Below, one piece after another: positions 31,783-39,297 of a stretch of DNA of 39,297 nucleotides. Position 1 is the first letter of the stretch. Every line of letters begins with the position of its first letter. The notes under the pieces were generated by a model. The model saw nothing but the letters and a program-made list of their open reading frames with translations, was not told the DNA's origin and did not search any database. Both the position numbers and the translations under genes were made by a program. The stretch comes from an uncultured Lachnospiraceae bacterium (GTDB taxonomy: Bacteria > Bacillota > Clostridia > Lachnospirales > Lachnospiraceae), in the NCBI GenBank assembly GCA_902788645.1, contig CADAKW010000007.1:1-39297 (forward strand), in the 5' to 3' direction.

Positions 31783-32247
31783 TTAAAGCTCACCCTTTTG
31801 CCGTAAATACGCAAGAAATCCCTCACAGCCCTCCAGCACATCATCATAGGTTGCATCAAAATTGCCGGTATACCACGGATCTGCAATATCCCGCCCGGAA
31901 CCGGCAAAAGATAAAAATTTACAGACTTTCCCCTCCGGATCGCCATGCAGCATGCGGTGCAAATACTTCATATTGAGCTCATCCATTCCAATGATGTAGT
32001 CAAAGTCGTCATAATCCGCAAAGGAAATCTGCTTCGCCCGGTGGGGTACCAGAGGGATCCCCACCTCTCTGAGCTTATTCACGGTTCCTCTGTGAGGGGG
32101 ATTACCGATTTCCTCTGTACTGGTGGCAAAGCTGTCGATCACAAACTGATCCTCCAGTCCAAGCTCCTTTACCTTGTATGTGAATACGCTCTCACTCAGG
32201 GTCGATCTGCAGATATTTCCCCAGCATACAAATGCTACTCTTATCAT
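31783..32247 (-). CDS. Low-molecular-weight protein tyrosine phosphatase
   Basis: A 154-residue protein. The P-loop VCWGNICRS gives nucleophile Cys8 and Arg14 in the CX5R signature; the general acid Asp lies in ADPWYTGNFDATYDDV near 122-137. HRAKQISFADYDDFDYIIGMD is a further LMW-PTP segment. In Firmicutes such enzymes reverse tyrosine phosphorylation of capsule kinases or dephosphorylate arginine phosphate; no kinase is near, so the target is open. AAGGAG lies 10 bases before the ATG, and a promoter is at 32313-32340. Monocistronic. Confidence 0.93.
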   Translation of the reverse strand: MIRVAFVCWGNICRSTLSESVFTYKVKELGLEDQFVIDSFATSTEEIGNPPHRGTVNKLREVGIPLVPHRAKQISFADYDDFDYIIGMDELNMKYLHRMLHGDPEGKVCKFLSFAGSGRDIADPWYTGNFDATYDDVLEGCEGFLAYLRQKGEL

Positions 32248-32378: not shown

Positions 32379-32854
32379 CATGCCCCTCTGCGCTTTGCGA
32401 TCCGGCCTTCTCCTCCCCGGGAGCCGTTCATCTCCGGATGATGCTGTTTGATCTTCTTCCTTTCATGCTCCCGCCTGGTCTTTGAAGATGTTCTGTTCCC
32501 TCCTCGCCAAGACTCCTTTAATAATCGTCTTAGCAATAAACACGGATTTTTTCTATTTTCATCTTTATATGAGAGACATTCCAAAAAAGCACCTTGTTCA
32601 TATTCATTCAATTCCTCAAATTTGCAAATAATTTTGATTTATAATGTAGTATCTTCTTTGTAAAAATCTTCCTGCTCCATTCTATACCAGTTCATGTCTG
32701 TAGTTCCAAGAACTAGCTTTATTGCATCCATGATTGCTGATTTTCCAGAATCATTTTCCCCAACAAGAACGTTTAAGCCCTTTTTGAAAGTAATATTATG
32801 CTCATTTCCGTCAAAACATATAAAATTCTTTATTTGCAACAGTGAAAGATACAT
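32378..32854 (-). pseudogene. Remnant of an OLD-like ATPase gene: N-terminus with in-frame stop, fused to unrelated sequence
   Basis: From ATG 32854 (SD GAGGAAT) 71 codons encode MYLSLLQIKNFICFDGNE and a Walker A, LVGENDSGKSAIMDAIK, as in OLD-family ATP-dependent endonucleases. A TAA at 32639-32641 ends the frame, yet the same frame continues with a sensible sequence (IKIICKFEELNEYEQGAFLE) to about 32520, so the stop looks like a nonsense mutation. Beyond about 32510 the DNA becomes GC-rich and the frame reads a basic Arg/Lys/Gly-rich stretch to a stop at 32378, probably sequence from a different gene. The rest of the ATPase and its TOPRIM domain are missing. Confidence 0.7.
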
Positions 32855-32921
32855 ATTCCTCAACTATCCTTTCTTTTGTTATCCAATTACAACTTATCTT
32901 CGTTTTATAATTTCACAGCAC

Positions 32922-33420: not shown

Positions 33421-33454
33421 CACAAAAGGCACCTACATTCCTGCAAGCGCCTTT
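33421..33454 (-). terminator. Terminator of the ATPase/TOPRIM-like module
   Basis: AAAGGCGC pairs with GTGCCTTT (one G-U) around a loop of about 14 bases, followed by TTGTGTC on the minus strand. It lies 18 bases past the stop of the second gene. Confidence 0.55.
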
Positions 33455-33471
33455 CATAATTTCAATTATTC

Positions 33472-33990
33472 TTATCGCAACAAATCCAGCAAGGTATATT
33501 CACCTTTTTGAACTTTTGACATTTCATGATATTTCTTTATTGCAGCCACAAGAACCGTCGGATTGCTAAAGTAGCGTTTCACAAAATCATAGGACTTTAC
33601 CTCTGGCATCTTCAAATCTTCTTTGCAGAAACTACTGGGTTTCTTCCCTGATTTCTTGAATTCTTTATACTTATTCTCATTGAAGATGATTAGCATCTCT
33701 ATTTCCGGTGCAGTAATGACATTAATCACATCCACCTTTCCCGCATACGCCTTACTAAGCTTAAAGTTCTCACGTCTGGAATCAAGTATTCTGACAACAG
33801 AAATTTTATCCATGAATCCTTTTCTCAAATATTTTTCTTCAAATTTCTTGCCTTCCCGACAACGGATTACTTCTTCCTCAAGCATCTCTTCTCTGTTGAA
33901 AATCAAAAGACCATGATCCAGAAGTATATCCATGATGGCATTTTCAGCCGAGCCTTCGCAAATGCATGCTTTATATTTTGCTAATTCCAT
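33472..33990 (-). CDS. Small TOPRIM-like protein, partner of the AAA ATPase (RloB/AbiLii-like, tentative)
   Basis: A 172-residue soluble protein. CICEGSAENAIMDILLDHGLLIF (9-31) reads as the first TOPRIM motif with Glu12-Gly13 and Glu16; VVRILDSRREN (65-75) would be the acidic second motif with Asp70; VINVITAPEIEMLIIF (88-103) follows with Glu96 and Glu98. These positions suit a metal-dependent nuclease fold like RloB or the TOPRIM partner of PARIS and Gabija systems, but the resemblance is short and unproven. The ATG at 33990 has AGGAGG 5 bases upstream; the ATPase stop overlaps the SD region, so translation is coupled. AT-rich relative to core genes. Confidence 0.65.
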   Translation of the reverse strand: MELAKYKACICEGSAENAIMDILLDHGLLIFNREEMLEEEVIRCREGKKFEEKYLRKGFMDKISVVRILDSRRENFKLSKAYAGKVDVINVITAPEIEMLIIFNENKYKEFKKSGKKPSSFCKEDLKMPEVKSYDFVKRYFSNPTVLVAAIKKYHEMSKVQKGEYTLLDLLR

Positions 33991-33999
33991 GAGCACCTC

Positions 34000-35154
34000 C
34001 TATTCCAAGGAGGCAGCTATACTCTTCTTTAGTTGCATATATGCCTCGTATGTCGGAGTTGTGCCTTCAAGAAAACCGCTCTGATATGCATCGCTCTTCT
34101 TGATATCATTTCTTTTGAGTATATTGGTTAGATTCTCTACTGTGATACCATTACAATTTCTGGTGATATATATACTATCATTGCGATCATATTCATCAAG
34201 CAATTCCGGATAATGGGTAGAGAAGATAAACGTTCCACCATTTTTATTCAACCTGCTGTCCATAAAGAATCGCATCAGCGTTGTAACGATTTCTTTATTA
34301 AAATGGTTCTCGACTTCATCTACAACAATGTACCCACCACTCTGTAATATTTCCTGCGCCAGAGTAAAAGTAATCATTCCTTTTACTGTACCTGATGAAA
34401 GATAGTTATTCAGCTCCACCGGATTATTAAGAAGAATTTCCTCTTTCCCCTTAAATTTCAGATGAATCAGTGTCTTATTGTCATTTTCATCAAAATGCAG
34501 CCTCTCAATTGTCGGATCCAGAAAAGTAATAACTTCAACCGGAATCTCTTCCAAAAGCGGAAGAACATTTTCATTTGTATACTTTAAAAGATTTACAATG
34601 TGCATATGCTCCTTCATCTTTTTATTCCTGGCAATCATGATGCTTACATCATCCGACAGAAAATCCTCTCGGCCACTTCTGACTATTAATGGCTCTCTGC
34701 TTTCAAAATCAAGCATTGCTTTACGTGTAATCACCTCTGCCACGCCTTTTGTCCACAAAGATTCTGAAACAATGCTGTAACTTATTCCTTCTGACTTACT
34801 CTTCTGAGAAGTAATAATTGTTTCTAATCGACAAATTTCATTTGTTTTTTCAGAAAAGAAATATATATTCCATTTAGCTTCTTTTGCATCTCCCAAAATA
34901 TCCCTGGTTTCAATGTGGTTAATTGGCTCATTATTGATTAGTTCTAAAGCAAGCAGAATAACCCTCAGGACGGAAGTCTTTCCAGATGCATTGATACCTA
35001 TGAACCCAGTTGCTGAATTCAAATAAATATTAGAAAATAATGGATACAGAATATTCTTTTGTTCTTCTGTGATTCTCTGCTGTGCATAAAAGGTCAAATC
35101 CAGTTTTTCCTTGAATAGCGGTAATCCTTCCGCTGTAATACGAAGAAGTTTCAT
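34000..35154 (-). CDS. AAA/ABC-type ATPase of a putative two-gene defence module (AAA_21/RloA/AbiLi-like)
   Basis: A 384-residue cytoplasmic protein. Walker A is GINASGKTS (53-61), an ABC-signature-like LSSGTVKG lies at 252-259, Walker B is YIVVDEVEN (275-283, catalytic Glu280), and the H-loop is FSTHYPE (311-317, His314). The central helical insertion between Walker A and the signature is typical of AAA_15/AAA_21 proteins in RloAB, AbiL, PARIS and some retron systems. It probably senses infection or DNA structure and controls the TOPRIM-like partner encoded directly downstream. GGAGGCATTC precedes the ATG at 35154; a TTG 4 codons earlier overlaps that SD. A strong promoter lies upstream. No premature stops, so it appears functional, unlike its neighbours. 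Confidence 0.8.
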   Translation of the reverse strand: MKLLRITAEGLPLFKEKLDLTFYAQQRITEEQKNILYPLFSNIYLNSATGFIGINASGKTSVLRVILLALELINNEPINHIETRDILGDAKEAKWNIYFFSEKTNEICRLETIITSQKSKSEGISYSIVSESLWTKGVAEVITRKAMLDFESREPLIVRSGREDFLSDDVSIMIARNKKMKEHMHIVNLLKYTNENVLPLLEEIPVEVITFLDPTIERLHFDENDNKTLIHLKFKGKEEILLNNPVELNNYLSSGTVKGMITFTLAQEILQSGGYIVVDEVENHFNKEIVTTLMRFFMDSRLNKNGGTFIFSTHYPELLDEYDRNDSIYITRNCNGITVENLTNILKRNDIKKSDAYQSGFLEGTTPTYEAYMQLKKSIAASLE

Positions 35155-35180
35155 GAATGCCTCCAAATTTATTAACGCGC

Positions 35181-35258
35181 TTTTCGTTTTTATTTTAGAC
35201 TTAACAATAGTATATCACTTCGATTTCATTTTATCAACGGAATTTTCGTTTTTATTTT
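35181..35258. repeat. Two identical 16-bp direct repeats flanking the module promoter
   Basis: TTTTCGTTTTTATTTT occurs at 35181-35196 and 35243-35258, 62 bases apart. One copy lies just upstream of the -35 box, the other at about +6 to +21, bracketing the promoter like operator half-pairs for a looping or dimeric regulator. Confidence 0.6.
35209..35237 (-). promoter_or_regulatory. Strong sigmaA promoter of the ATPase/TOPRIM-like module
   Basis: TTGATA (35232-35237, minus strand) and TATACT (35209-35214) are separated by 17 bases; start near 35202, leader about 48 bases. Confidence 0.7.
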
Positions 35259-35277: not shown

Positions 35278-36254
35278 CTACCGATGCATTGCAATCTCAA
35301 TACCATCCATATACTGCCCCAATGACATATTAAACCCCTGATAGTCCACGTTCTGAAACTCCTCTGTCATCCCCGCCACATTAACATCAACCGCTTCCTG
35401 CTGCAGGGCTTCTCTGACACACGGACATTGATCATCCCTCCCACCGGCGTAAACTTCACTGCATTACTGATAAGATTCAGCAGAACCTGATTTAGGCGAA
35501 GCTTGTCCGTAATAATGTCCTCATGCATCACATCCTGAGTATCAATATACAGATCCAGCTGCTTTGCGGAAATATTCCCCTGAATGATCGTTCGCAGATC
35601 ATGAAGAATGTCCGGAATATGTACCTCTGTCTCCTCGATCTTTACGCTGCCGCTCTCGATCCGGCTCATATCCAGCACATCATTGATCAGGCTCAGCAAA
35701 TGGGTACTGGAAATATTGATCTTATTGAGATAATCCTGCACCAGCTCCTGATTGTCAATATGCGTCGCCGCCAATGCCGTATATCCGATGATGGCATTCA
35801 TCGGCGTACGGATGTCATGGGACATATTACTTAGAAATGTCGTCTTTGCTTTATTGGCGTGTTCTGCTGCCGCGAGGGCGTTGCGAAGTGCCTCCTCGGA
35901 CTTGCGGTGTCTGTCCGTGATATTCCATGCATACTCAACAAAAACCTCTCTGCCCTCCCAGACTGTTTTTCTGGTTTTTACGGCAAAAACCTCCTGACCG
36001 TTGTCCACCTCAGTCTCAAAACATTCTCCCTCACCAAGGTGCTTCAACGGGCAAAACGGACATTGCTCTGTAAGCCCCATCATATATTCATAGCAATGCT
36101 TCCCCTGATAGGGCTGATCCAAATGACCGGTATATTTTCTGGCCGGTTCATTGGCATATATCATCGTCAGAGTTTCTGCATCACTCACCTGGATCATCTC
36201 ATTGGAGTCATTCAGAATCTGCTCCAACATACGTGTGTTATTTTCCAAAGTCAT
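35278..36254 (-). pseudogene. Truncated PAS histidine kinase, broken in the ATPase domain
   Basis: The 295-codon frame (36254-35367) encodes a PAS domain (about 10-115, with a QCPFCPLKHL Cys pair), a HisKA domain FLSNMSHDIRTPMNAIIGY (phospho-acceptor His146) and the N-box NQVLLNLISNAVKFTP (255-270). Soon after (residue 281) the sequence stops matching any kinase: the G1, F and G2 boxes are absent and the frame ends at 35367. In another frame the DNA stays open from about 35430 to a TAG at 35278, giving 50 residues ending MSLGQYMDGIEIAMHR that may belong to another gene's end. A deletion or insertion at the island border best explains this. It lacks ATP-binding capacity. Confidence 0.75.
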
Positions 36255-36302: not shown

Positions 36303-37590
36303 TTATCCCCTGAGCAGCTTCTCCACTTCCTCTCTGGCATCCAAAAAAATCTCTGTCAGTTCCGGATCAAAATCACTACCGGCGCCTTTTGCAATAATAT
36401 CAAAGCATTGATCTACCGGCATAGCATCCCGATAACATCTCTTTTGTGAAACCGCATCAAACACATCGGCAATCGCCATGACTCTGGCGTGAAGCGGAAT
36501 CTCTTCTCCCGCCAGTCTATCCGGATAACCTTTTCCGTTGTATTTCTCATGATGATATCTCGCCACTTCATATGCAATCTGCTGAAATTCCGGATTGTCC
36601 AGATTATTAAACGTATTTTGTATGATCTCACCACCTCTGGCCGCATGCTCTTTCATAATGGCATACTCCTCGTCCGTGAGCTTTCCGGGTTTTTGCAGAA
36701 TATGATCCGGCGTTGCGATCTTTCCAATATCATGAAGTGGTGCTGCATTGCTGACATTGATCAGATAATCCCGGTTTACTATGTCCCGGTAACGCTTATC
36801 TCTCCGCATTTTGTGAAGCATCAGATTGACATAAGCCCTTGTCCTTTTTAATATGACCACCGGTATTGTTGTCCCTATTTTCCACCAGAGTCGCAAAACC
36901 CTCGATCATCCGCTCATTATGAATCGTCAGCTTTCGGATGGCAGGATTTTCAAAATCCACATAAATCCCTAAAACAAGAATTGTCGGAAAAATAGCAGTC
37001 AGCAAAACTTCCGGAAAAACAATCTGAACCACAAGAATGGTTCCACAGATTACAATAAAGGACAACGTCCCCAACAATTTATCCTTTGGCAGAAATTTAT
37101 GACGTACGGTTACAAGCCAAAAAATCGCTCCATAATAAAGAATCACGGTTGCATAACATACGTACACAGAAAAGCCCATGGAATAATTCGTCGTCTGACC
37201 ATGAAGATACGACAACTGTCCCATCCCCACAACGGTCAGCACCAGAGAAATAATCTCCGGCAGACAAAAAAGAAGCTTCATTTTATTATTATTTTTGTGA
37301 AATCCAACCGTCTGATCATACATATACATCGCTGTCACAAGGATCGTGAGATCCATAAAAACAAAAAACAGCAAATGCGCCAGGTCGTTCCAAAAAGCAG
37401 GGACAACATCCTGATGATTTACCGTCCATGACGTTACCCCATCAAAGATGACAGCCCAGGGAGCCGTAACCATCAGAGCATCAAAATAACGATTACGGAC
37501 GAGCTTTTCGCCTAATGTTGCCTTCACATATGTCACGACAATATAAAGAATCACTAAAAGACATCCGATTTGTAATTTTATGTAAATCAT
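36303..37590 (-). pseudogene. Membrane HD-GYP phosphodiesterase gene with a one-base frameshift
   Basis: The first frame (37590-36796, SD AGAGGAAATAAAT) gives an N-terminal membrane domain of seven or eight helices, then GFATLVENRDNNTGGHIK, the usual HD-GYP entry. The second frame (from about 36896) continues RTRAYVNLMLHKMRRDK, HDIGKIATPDHIL, HAARGGE and HHEKYNGKGYPD, so the HD and GYP residues are intact. The switch falls in a run of five A bases (36845-36849), where one A too many breaks the frame. The joined product would be about 425 residues and would hydrolyse c-di-GMP or related cyclic dinucleotides. Either it is a recent pseudogene or the base is an assembly error. Confidence 0.8.
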
Positions 37591-37746: not shown

Positions 37747-39297
37747 TTACTTTAATACAATATCGCTGATCACCGGTGCGCCGCTTCCGCCGCCAACACC
37801 ACAATTCAGGGTAATGGTCTTTCCGGCAGTCCAGTTACCGTCCCAGCCCGGATTACTTACACGGTAACGGTTATTTCCGAGGCCCTTGCACTCGCCGCTC
37901 CACATAGATGTGATCTCGCGGTCCAGAGTAAACTCAACGGTCCAGCCGTTTGTAAAGCTTACACCGGAATTATTTGTCAGAGTGATCTGTGCAATTCCGC
38001 CGCTGCCCCAATCGCTGGTGAGCTTCACACTTCCTGTTACCTTGCCGTCATCAGCCGGTTCTGTGGTTGGCGCTACAGTCGGTGCAACGGTTGGCTCCAC
38101 GGTCGGTTCTGTGGTTGGCGCTACTGTCGGTGCCTGAGTTGGTGCTACTGTCGGCTCTACCGTTGGTGCTACAGTTGGTGCCTGGGTTGGTGCAACTGTC
38201 GGCTCTACCGTCGGTGCCACAGTTGGTTCTACAGTAGGCTCCGGTGTCTCACTGCCATTTCCTGCAATGGAAAGCTTCACGATCTTTCCGCCGTTCCATA
38301 CAGACAGGCAGAGATATGTCACATTAGAGTTATCCTTAATGTTCATGGTTGCTTTCAGCTCTTTGACCGTATATGTTCTGGTGATCTCCTCTGTCGCATT
38401 GCTTGCGGCTGAATAATTATCACCGTTCTGCCACTGATTATCTACCGATGCTCCCCAGCCGAGAATACCCCAGTTTCCATGAGATGGATCGGTACATGTG
38501 TAGACAACTGTTACAATATCATCATCTGCCGCATCCATCAGCCATGATGCATCGTTTGTTGCATAAGTGGATGTCAGATTGGAGGCAATGATCTTTTCTC
38601 CTGTGATCACTGGTGTCTCCGTTGGTTTTACGGTTGGTGCAACGGTCGGCTCTGCCGTCGGTGCTTCTGTTGGCTTCGCAGTTGGTGCCTTTGTTGGCTC
38701 TGCTGTCGGTGCAACTGTTGGTGCCTTTGTCGGCTCTACCGTCGGTGCAGCTGTTGGTTTTACAGTCGGCGCAACGGTCGGCTCTACTGTTGGTGCGACG
38801 GTTGGCTCTGTTACATTTCCATCAATTCCTGATACTTCGAAGTTCATCTTGACGGTATTCATTGTCTGATAATTTACATTATTAAAGTATGCCTTATAAT
38901 TTGAATTTTCTACAGTCACATTATTGATGTGGGTATTTGCCCATACATTAATAAATGAGAAGTTAAAGATCGGACAAATCAGACCATCATCGGATGCCTT
39001 CTGAGATACATCATAGGTAAAGGTATCATTCTTCATGGTGTATTCCTGTCCGTTGATCTCGAAGGATTTTACCTTCACGGTTGCCTTATTAAATACAGAA
39101 GCCTCATCATCTGCCACATTGATATCCTTAATATAGAGAGATCCAATGTTCTGCAGCTGGCTCTTGGTTGCCTCCAGAGACAGCGAGAAATCTCCGCCGC
39201 CGGAATAAATATCAACATACTCATCACTGATCACAGACTGCCAGCTTGCAGTCTCCAGCAGATACAATTTGGCACGTACATATTCTGCCTTTGGCAC
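37747..39297 (-). CDS. Secreted carbohydrate-binding protein with C-terminal CBM2-like module, 5' part outside window
   Basis: 516 residues are visible; the true start lies beyond the right edge (a GTG at 39297 is only the edge codon). Residues 1-155 form a beta-sandwich-like domain (FSLSLEATKSQLQNIGSLYIKD, KVKSFEINGQEYTM). A Pro/Thr/Ala/Val linker of the APTVEPT type spans about 160-230. A second beta domain (about 230-345, WGILGWGASVDNQWQNG, ITRTYTVKELKATM) and another PT linker (350-415) follow. Residues 419-516 have a CBM2-type pattern with surface tryptophans in NGWTVEF, SMWSG and NPGWDGNWT. A catalytic domain, for example a glycoside hydrolase, may lie upstream. Target glycan, possibly cellulose or xylan, is inferred from CBM2. 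Confidence 0.85.
   Translation of the reverse strand: MPKAEYVRAKLYLLETASWQSVISDEYVDIYSGGGDFSLSLEATKSQLQNIGSLYIKDINVADDEASVFNKATVKVKSFEINGQEYTMKNDTFTYDVSQKASDDGLICPIFNFSFINVWANTHINNVTVENSNYKAYFNNVNYQTMNTVKMNFEVSGIDGNVTEPTVAPTVEPTVAPTVKPTAAPTVEPTKAPTVAPTAEPTKAPTAKPTEAPTAEPTVAPTVKPTETPVITGEKIIASNLTSTYATNDASWLMDAADDDIVTVVYTCTDPSHGNWGILGWGASVDNQWQNGDNYSAASNATEEITRTYTVKELKATMNIKDNSNVTYLCLSVWNGGKIVKLSIAGNGSETPEPTVEPTVAPTVEPTVAPTQAPTVAPTVEPTVAPTQAPTVAPTTEPTVEPTVAPTVAPTTEPADDGKVTGSVKLTSDWGSGGIAQITLTNNSGVSFTNGWTVEFTLDREITSMWSGECKGLGNNRYRVSNPGWDGNWTAGKTITLNCGVGGGSGAPVISDIVLK

Follow-up and report, generated by a model that had tools for sequence, protein, structure and literature searches.

A double operator, conserved at the promoter of a two-gene ATPase and TOPRIM-like pair, is the new observation of this work. 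The pair lies in the window, the whole stretch of 39,297 nucleotides analysed here from an uncultured Lachnospiraceae bacterium, where the centres of the two operator-like palindromes (O1 and O2) are 62 bp apart. We incline, with moderate confidence, to the view that the pair is a mobile, self-regulating defence module of the abortive-infection kind. The features of the locus are as follows.

33421–33458, minus strand: terminator-like hairpin 3′ of the partner gene
33475–33990, minus strand: partner gene, 172 aa, TOPRIM-like by its invariant residues, its model and the nearest solved folds
33996–34000, minus strand: GGAGG ribosome site of the partner gene, in contact with the stop codon of the ATPase gene
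34000–34002, minus strand: ATPase stop codon, TAG
34003–35154, minus strand: ATPase gene, 384 aa, from the ORF call, the AAA_21 and AbiLi matches and the head fold
35160–35164, minus strand: GGAGG ribosome site of the ATPase gene
35170–35192: operator-like palindrome O2, TAAAAACGAAAAGCGCGTTAATA, 12/12, between the −10 hexamer and the ribosome site
35209–35214, minus strand: −10 hexamer TATACT with TG upstream, conserved
35232–35237, minus strand: −35 hexamer TTGATA, kept in 44 relatives
35232–35254: operator-like palindrome O1, TAAAAACGAAAATTCCGTTGATA, 12/12, overlapping the −35 hexamer

The first-pass annotation had described two coupled genes of 384 and 172 residues with a near-consensus promoter and a terminator, and all of these were recovered. 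Both open reading frames lie on the minus strand with 9 nt between them, and the partner has its own GGAGG. The hairpin was not picked up by a pattern scan, yet it folds at z = −4.4. Although promoter-like matches are no commoner in the region than chance, the promoter (TTGATA-17-TATACT with TG) was judged real because of its conservation in the 44 relatives. The two conserved palindromes around it had gone unmentioned.

The promoter alignment of 44 non-redundant relatives gave the palindrome pattern TAnnAACR-N7-YGTTnnTA, with 12 constrained positions per site and variable intervening sequence. A score of at least 10/12 is reached in 66 of 68 relatives, and 55 score 12/12, whereas one of 39 control promoters of same-family RloA/AbiLi-type ATPases reaches 10, as do 6% of shuffles. 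The two sites are spaced by 61–63 bp in 55 of 59 relatives. Seven distant relatives (24–34% ATPase identity), which stood outside the derivation of the pattern from closer ones, all score 10–12/12. The arms of both sites are altered in step in one relative, L010 (AAC to TAC and GTT to GTA), and a related palindrome is found in Bifidobacterium. Scoring inverted repeats sequence by sequence did not separate the relatives from shuffles in DNA this rich in A+T; the site model with fixed spacing did. Reading the palindromes as RNA hairpins is ruled out for O1, which overlaps the −35 hexamer and stays untranscribed; O2 is placed between the start point and the ribosome site.

The protein encoded by the first gene is an ATPase of the SMC/Rad50-head type. 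The motifs expected of it had been named earlier (Gly53–Thr60, Glu280 and His314), and the residues are correct: Walker A is GINASGKT (residues 53–60), followed by D279-E280 and H314, all invariant in relatives with the exception of S57 of Walker A. A profile search matched AAA_21 at 1.8e-13. The best PADLOC match is AbiLi at 5.5e-29, which is better than AriA and far weaker than the 1e-88 of a typical RloA protein against the same profile. The predicted model (pLDDT 87.6) resembles Rad50, SMC, PtuA, AriA and OLD heads in structure comparison. Judged from these matches, the ATPase is a distant relative of the AbiLi/RloA ATPases.

The partner matched no family in Pfam, NCBIfam or PADLOC and none of the sequences of solved structures. 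Residues E12, G13, E16, D70, T93, P95, E96 and E98 are invariant in its relatives, giving the layout E12-G13...E16 / D70 / T93-P95-E96-x-E98. The TOPRIM-like acids noted before (Glu12, Asp70 and Glu96) are thus all present and invariant, as is E98, but the classical DxD lacks its second aspartate: that position is R72, and a conserved acid stands at D+4. The structure was predicted at pLDDT 92.8, from an input set without the plasmid relatives. Foldseek alone gave no significant match for this model, while the six best VIA-align rows are PH0156, four Toprim domains of OLD proteins and GajA, with Z from 7.9 down to 5.3 across 129–156 residues; scores up to 7.9 are in a range that common folds also reach, and receiver domains rank next at 5.1 or less. 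A TOPRIM fold had been proposed for the partner, and structure prediction places it nearest the OLD/GajA TOPRIM domains. The metal ligands of OLD are E400/E404/D455/D457/T506/E508 (PMC6755086). The partner's E12, E16, D70, T93, E96 and E98 follow the order of E400, E404, D455, T506 and E508, although the set E, E(+4), DxD, TxE is incomplete because the second D of DxD is replaced. Given the nearest folds and the ligand order, and despite the missing aspartate, the partner is likely a Toprim-type metal nuclease, a prediction based on modest structural scores and motif order. A Ligilactobacillus homologue of the partner (L095:5983-6525) is annotated as "N-6 DNA methylase", apparently in error.

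The nearest known system is RloAB/AbiL, defined as an AbiLi ATPase with an AbiLii RloB-type TOPRIM (Pfam AAA_21 and PF13707). Like the pair in the window, it has two genes with the ATPase first and the TOPRIM-like partner second, and a similar layout of three motifs. The pair might accordingly be an ordinary diverged RloAB/AbiL, its palindromes a local regulatory detail without wider meaning; the AbiLi match and the shared gene order speak for this, as does the resemblance of the EGxxE / D / P-x-x-E order to the EGxxTE / DxD / NPxFE of RloB. Among 30 relatives of the partner, one reaches RloB at 0.011, below the cut-off, and none reaches AbiLii; of 50 viral rows, the one with the best TM (0.42) is a phage RloB-like model, a weak likeness. 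Set against this, the partner itself matches neither the RloB (PF13707) nor the AbiLii profile at E up to 1, and profile-profile comparison with 18 RloB proteins (hhalign) gave a probability of 1–2%, which is not significant. The motifs of the partner read E-x3-E, D-x3-E/D and P-E-x-E, its first motif is spaced +4 rather than the +5 of RloB, the DxD is missing, and the double operator is missing from RloA-type promoters. We therefore regard membership as doubtful. The same genome also contains a true RloAB/AbiL pair (G000 contig 32, 12016–13353), whose promoter is among the controls. The pair had been placed near RloAB and AbiL and left unassigned, and this position holds, with an ATPase related to AbiLi and a partner that fails the RloB and AbiLii profiles: it is probably a variant beside RloAB/AbiL, not a member, that works like one.

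Other systems are further away. PARIS also has a separate ABC-type ATPase and Toprim effector, and AriA chains are matched by the ATPase model, but the ATPase is nearer AbiLi than AriA. No AriB-type effector was detected in the pair, AriB being absent among the structures listed for the partner model and PADLOC giving no match of the partner at all. The double operator is a further feature of the window pair, from an operator comparison that covered RloA-type promoters. With Gabija and OLD the pair shares an SMC-type ATPase beside a Toprim-like part, the partner's model coming nearest to the OLD and GajA Toprim domains, and the spacing of E12/E16 is that of OLD E400/E404; it differs in its two chains, in the lack of a GajB helicase and of DxD, and in a cassette that ends at the pair. 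Septu and retrons differ in that the cassette is the pair only, with no HNH match and no reverse transcriptase.

Neither protein has a helix-turn-helix or other known DNA-binding domain that we could find, and there is no regulator gene within the cassette. The putative operator might be bound by a regulator from outside the pair, a host or mobile-element factor that governs the pair and phage loci alike. The site core is kept even where protein identity is down to about 25%, and phages without the pair carry sites, both in keeping with such a factor. A regulon is not seen, however: the 2.4-Mb genome has no exact match besides O1 and O2, and its near-matches are no more numerous than those of the control. 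Double sites occur in 10 of the 299 family genomes, eight at the pair and only two away from it (one in a prophage and one at a contig end), and the reversed-pattern control gave zero in the same 299 genomes. The sites also accompany the pair where it occurs in Spirochaetes, in a Succinivibrionaceae bacterium and on a Ligilactobacillus plasmid. An outside regulator is hence rather unlikely. With no regulator encoded in the cassette, and with the sites following it from phylum to phylum, autoregulation by the proteins of the pair is the likeliest reading of the sequence; which of the two proteins would bind is a guess. Conserved operator-like palindromes at the pair's own promoter are also a point of likeness to autoregulated toxin-antitoxin-like modules. 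AbiE is a two-gene abortive-infection module in which a product acts on inverted repeats to repress the promoter it is made from. The AbiE proteins are unrelated to those of the pair, in which no DNA-binding antitoxin domain is visible. In the literature searched, no work on autoregulation of such ATPase-TOPRIM pairs was found.

The distribution of the pair is patchy (about 8% of family genomes). Of the 299 family genomes, 26 have the partner, 24 the ATPase and 21 both; the three ATPase-only and five partner-only genomes all hold fragments, stop-bearing frames or contig-end hits. Every intact ATPase relative is accompanied by the partner, so no partnerless intact ATPase stands against the pairing suggested earlier. 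The order of ATPase then partner also holds at 68 other loci, wherever both genes are visible; these loci come from named genomes, the majority Lachnospiraceae, with Gemmiger, Oscillibacter, Spirochaetes and a Succinivibrionaceae bacterium as well. Distant copies are found on Ligilactobacillus and Bifidobacterium plasmids; on two Bifidobacterium megaplasmids (L096 and L097) they follow an ATP-grasp gene and precede DUF3841 and DNA-methyltransferase genes. DNA homology between the window and all relatives is confined to about 33425/33484–35254/35268 and never includes the flanks. Because homology ends at the pair's edges in every relative, the pair is, on this comparison, a stand-alone 1.8-kb cassette that has moved many times. 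The dN/dS values of 0.03–0.08 in both genes indicate strong purifying selection.

The genes around the pair had been described as truncated or interrupted by stops, with the pair as the only intact unit. Damage was found in the last three of the following features and in a 123-aa winged-helix remnant in the pair's flanks.

31783–32247: apparently intact gene of 154 aa
32639–32863: 74-aa fragment of an OLD/AAA-type ATPase with Walker A
35367–36254: histidine-kinase gene with most of the ATPase domain missing
36303–37590: HD-GYP gene split between two frames

"Only intact unit" was nevertheless too strong, given the 154-aa gene and the long open genes further off. The fragment at 32639–32863 is a second, dead defence-like gene beside the pair. 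The gene at 37747–39297, which reaches the end of the window, encodes a protein that combines PT-rich disordered repeats with a cellulose-binding domain (CBM_2). The selective maintenance of the pair that had been proposed is borne out by the dN/dS values and the strict pairing.

A stand-alone cassette with an autoregulated-looking promoter, intact amid decayed flanks and with copies on plasmids, would also suit a toxin-antitoxin module that serves plasmid or island addiction instead of phage defence. But the copies are spread over many genera, mostly off known plasmids, and many are truncated, which strict addiction would punish; we consider this reading quite unlikely, and it is in any case compatible with defence and not exclusive of it. 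That the partner is an inactive or non-catalytic TOPRIM fold, the pair serving DNA repair or other house-keeping, would fit the missing second DxD acid and the Rad50/SMC-like ATPase fold, but is very unlikely in view of the patchy distribution, the mobility and the invariance of the remaining metal-ligand positions.

Returning to a self-regulating defence module, the ATPase would act as both sensor and restrainer, and the TOPRIM-like partner as a metal-dependent nuclease effector (E12/E16, D70 and E96/E98). As long as the cell is at rest, the ATPase, either by itself or together with the partner, would sit on the two palindromes about six helical turns apart and keep expression low; infection would disturb the complex, freeing the effector and relieving repression. 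The predicted operator binder, the nuclease activity, its neutralisation and the role in defence are inferred from the pairing, the selection, the folds, the operator and precedents. AAA proteins neutralise Toprim toxins related to AbiL/AbiLii (PMC10440598), and in PARIS the AriA ATPase senses phage triggers while the AriB Toprim is a tRNase (PMC12409363). No published experiment on this ATPase-partner family was found.

Double sites are also present on phages. Searching IMG/VR for the double-site pattern at a spacing of 60–64 bp returned 13 stretches, all at 61–63 bp, with the pair in three and not in ten (L303, L444, L445 with its near-copy L451, L446 with L453, L447, L450, L452 and L454), the latter representing about eight independent phages. 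No double site was found in IMG/VR at control spacings of 50–54 or 65–69 bp, nor when the pattern was scrambled and the true spacing retained. The 70–74 bp control gave three, all at exactly 72 bp and all homologous to L447. In this group of related phages (L447:3540-3624 at 62 bp; L455:9832-9926, L456:7123-7217 and L457:9870-9964 at 72 bp) both sites are kept with shifted spacing, and one site lies within the first part of an exonuclease gene. That the spacing changes by one helical turn while neither site is lost speaks for an element that is functional and depends on helical phase. Among the matches listed for single sites in viral contigs, most are chance occurrences.

The genes near the phage double sites encode a phage exonuclease, single-strand annealing, terminase and tail functions; the sites of L450 are inside coding sequence, which makes a weaker case. 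The G227 prophage has three sites in 62-bp steps (L195:1807-1953; G227 contig 23, 3306–3452), and this array fills a 280-bp gap that separates the tape-measure gene from the tail-chaperone gene ahead of it. Named Lachnospiraceae phages that share these tail genes carry accessory genes at this position, and which genes these are varies. No match among named phages was found for the array regions of L446 and L447. A different ATPase and TOPRIM-like pair directly adjoins the double operator of module type in L445 (7176–9194). In G086 contig 46 a double operator lies at the contig end (L469:69-153), with no recognisable −10, beside an AbiEii-like nucleotidyltransferase gene, and is possibly a dead cassette.

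Read by eye, −35/−10 signals between the phage sites are absent except in L445/L451, and the palindromes outside these two are equal to or better than the module's own, so that remnant promoters are an unlikely reading beyond L445/L451 and G086 contig 46. At L445/L451, where a ribosome-site-like tail is kept, and at G086 contig 46, a remnant promoter is possible. We tentatively propose that the phage arrays, with two or three sites at 62–63 or 72 bp and neither promoter nor genes, may be decoys that titrate or capture the ATPase-TOPRIM complex as a counter-defence. Alternatively, the arrays may put phage genes under the control of the module's repressor, or be what is left of lost cassettes. 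No work on operator decoys against such pairs was found in the literature searched.

ATPase-TOPRIM pairs recur in bacterial immunity, and little is known about what holds them in check. For the pair in the window, the element that probably controls it can be read from the sequence; it is conserved across phyla and short enough for a direct test. If the phage sites are indeed decoys, phages would disarm an immune system by DNA alone, and these sites would supply a search pattern for further cases.
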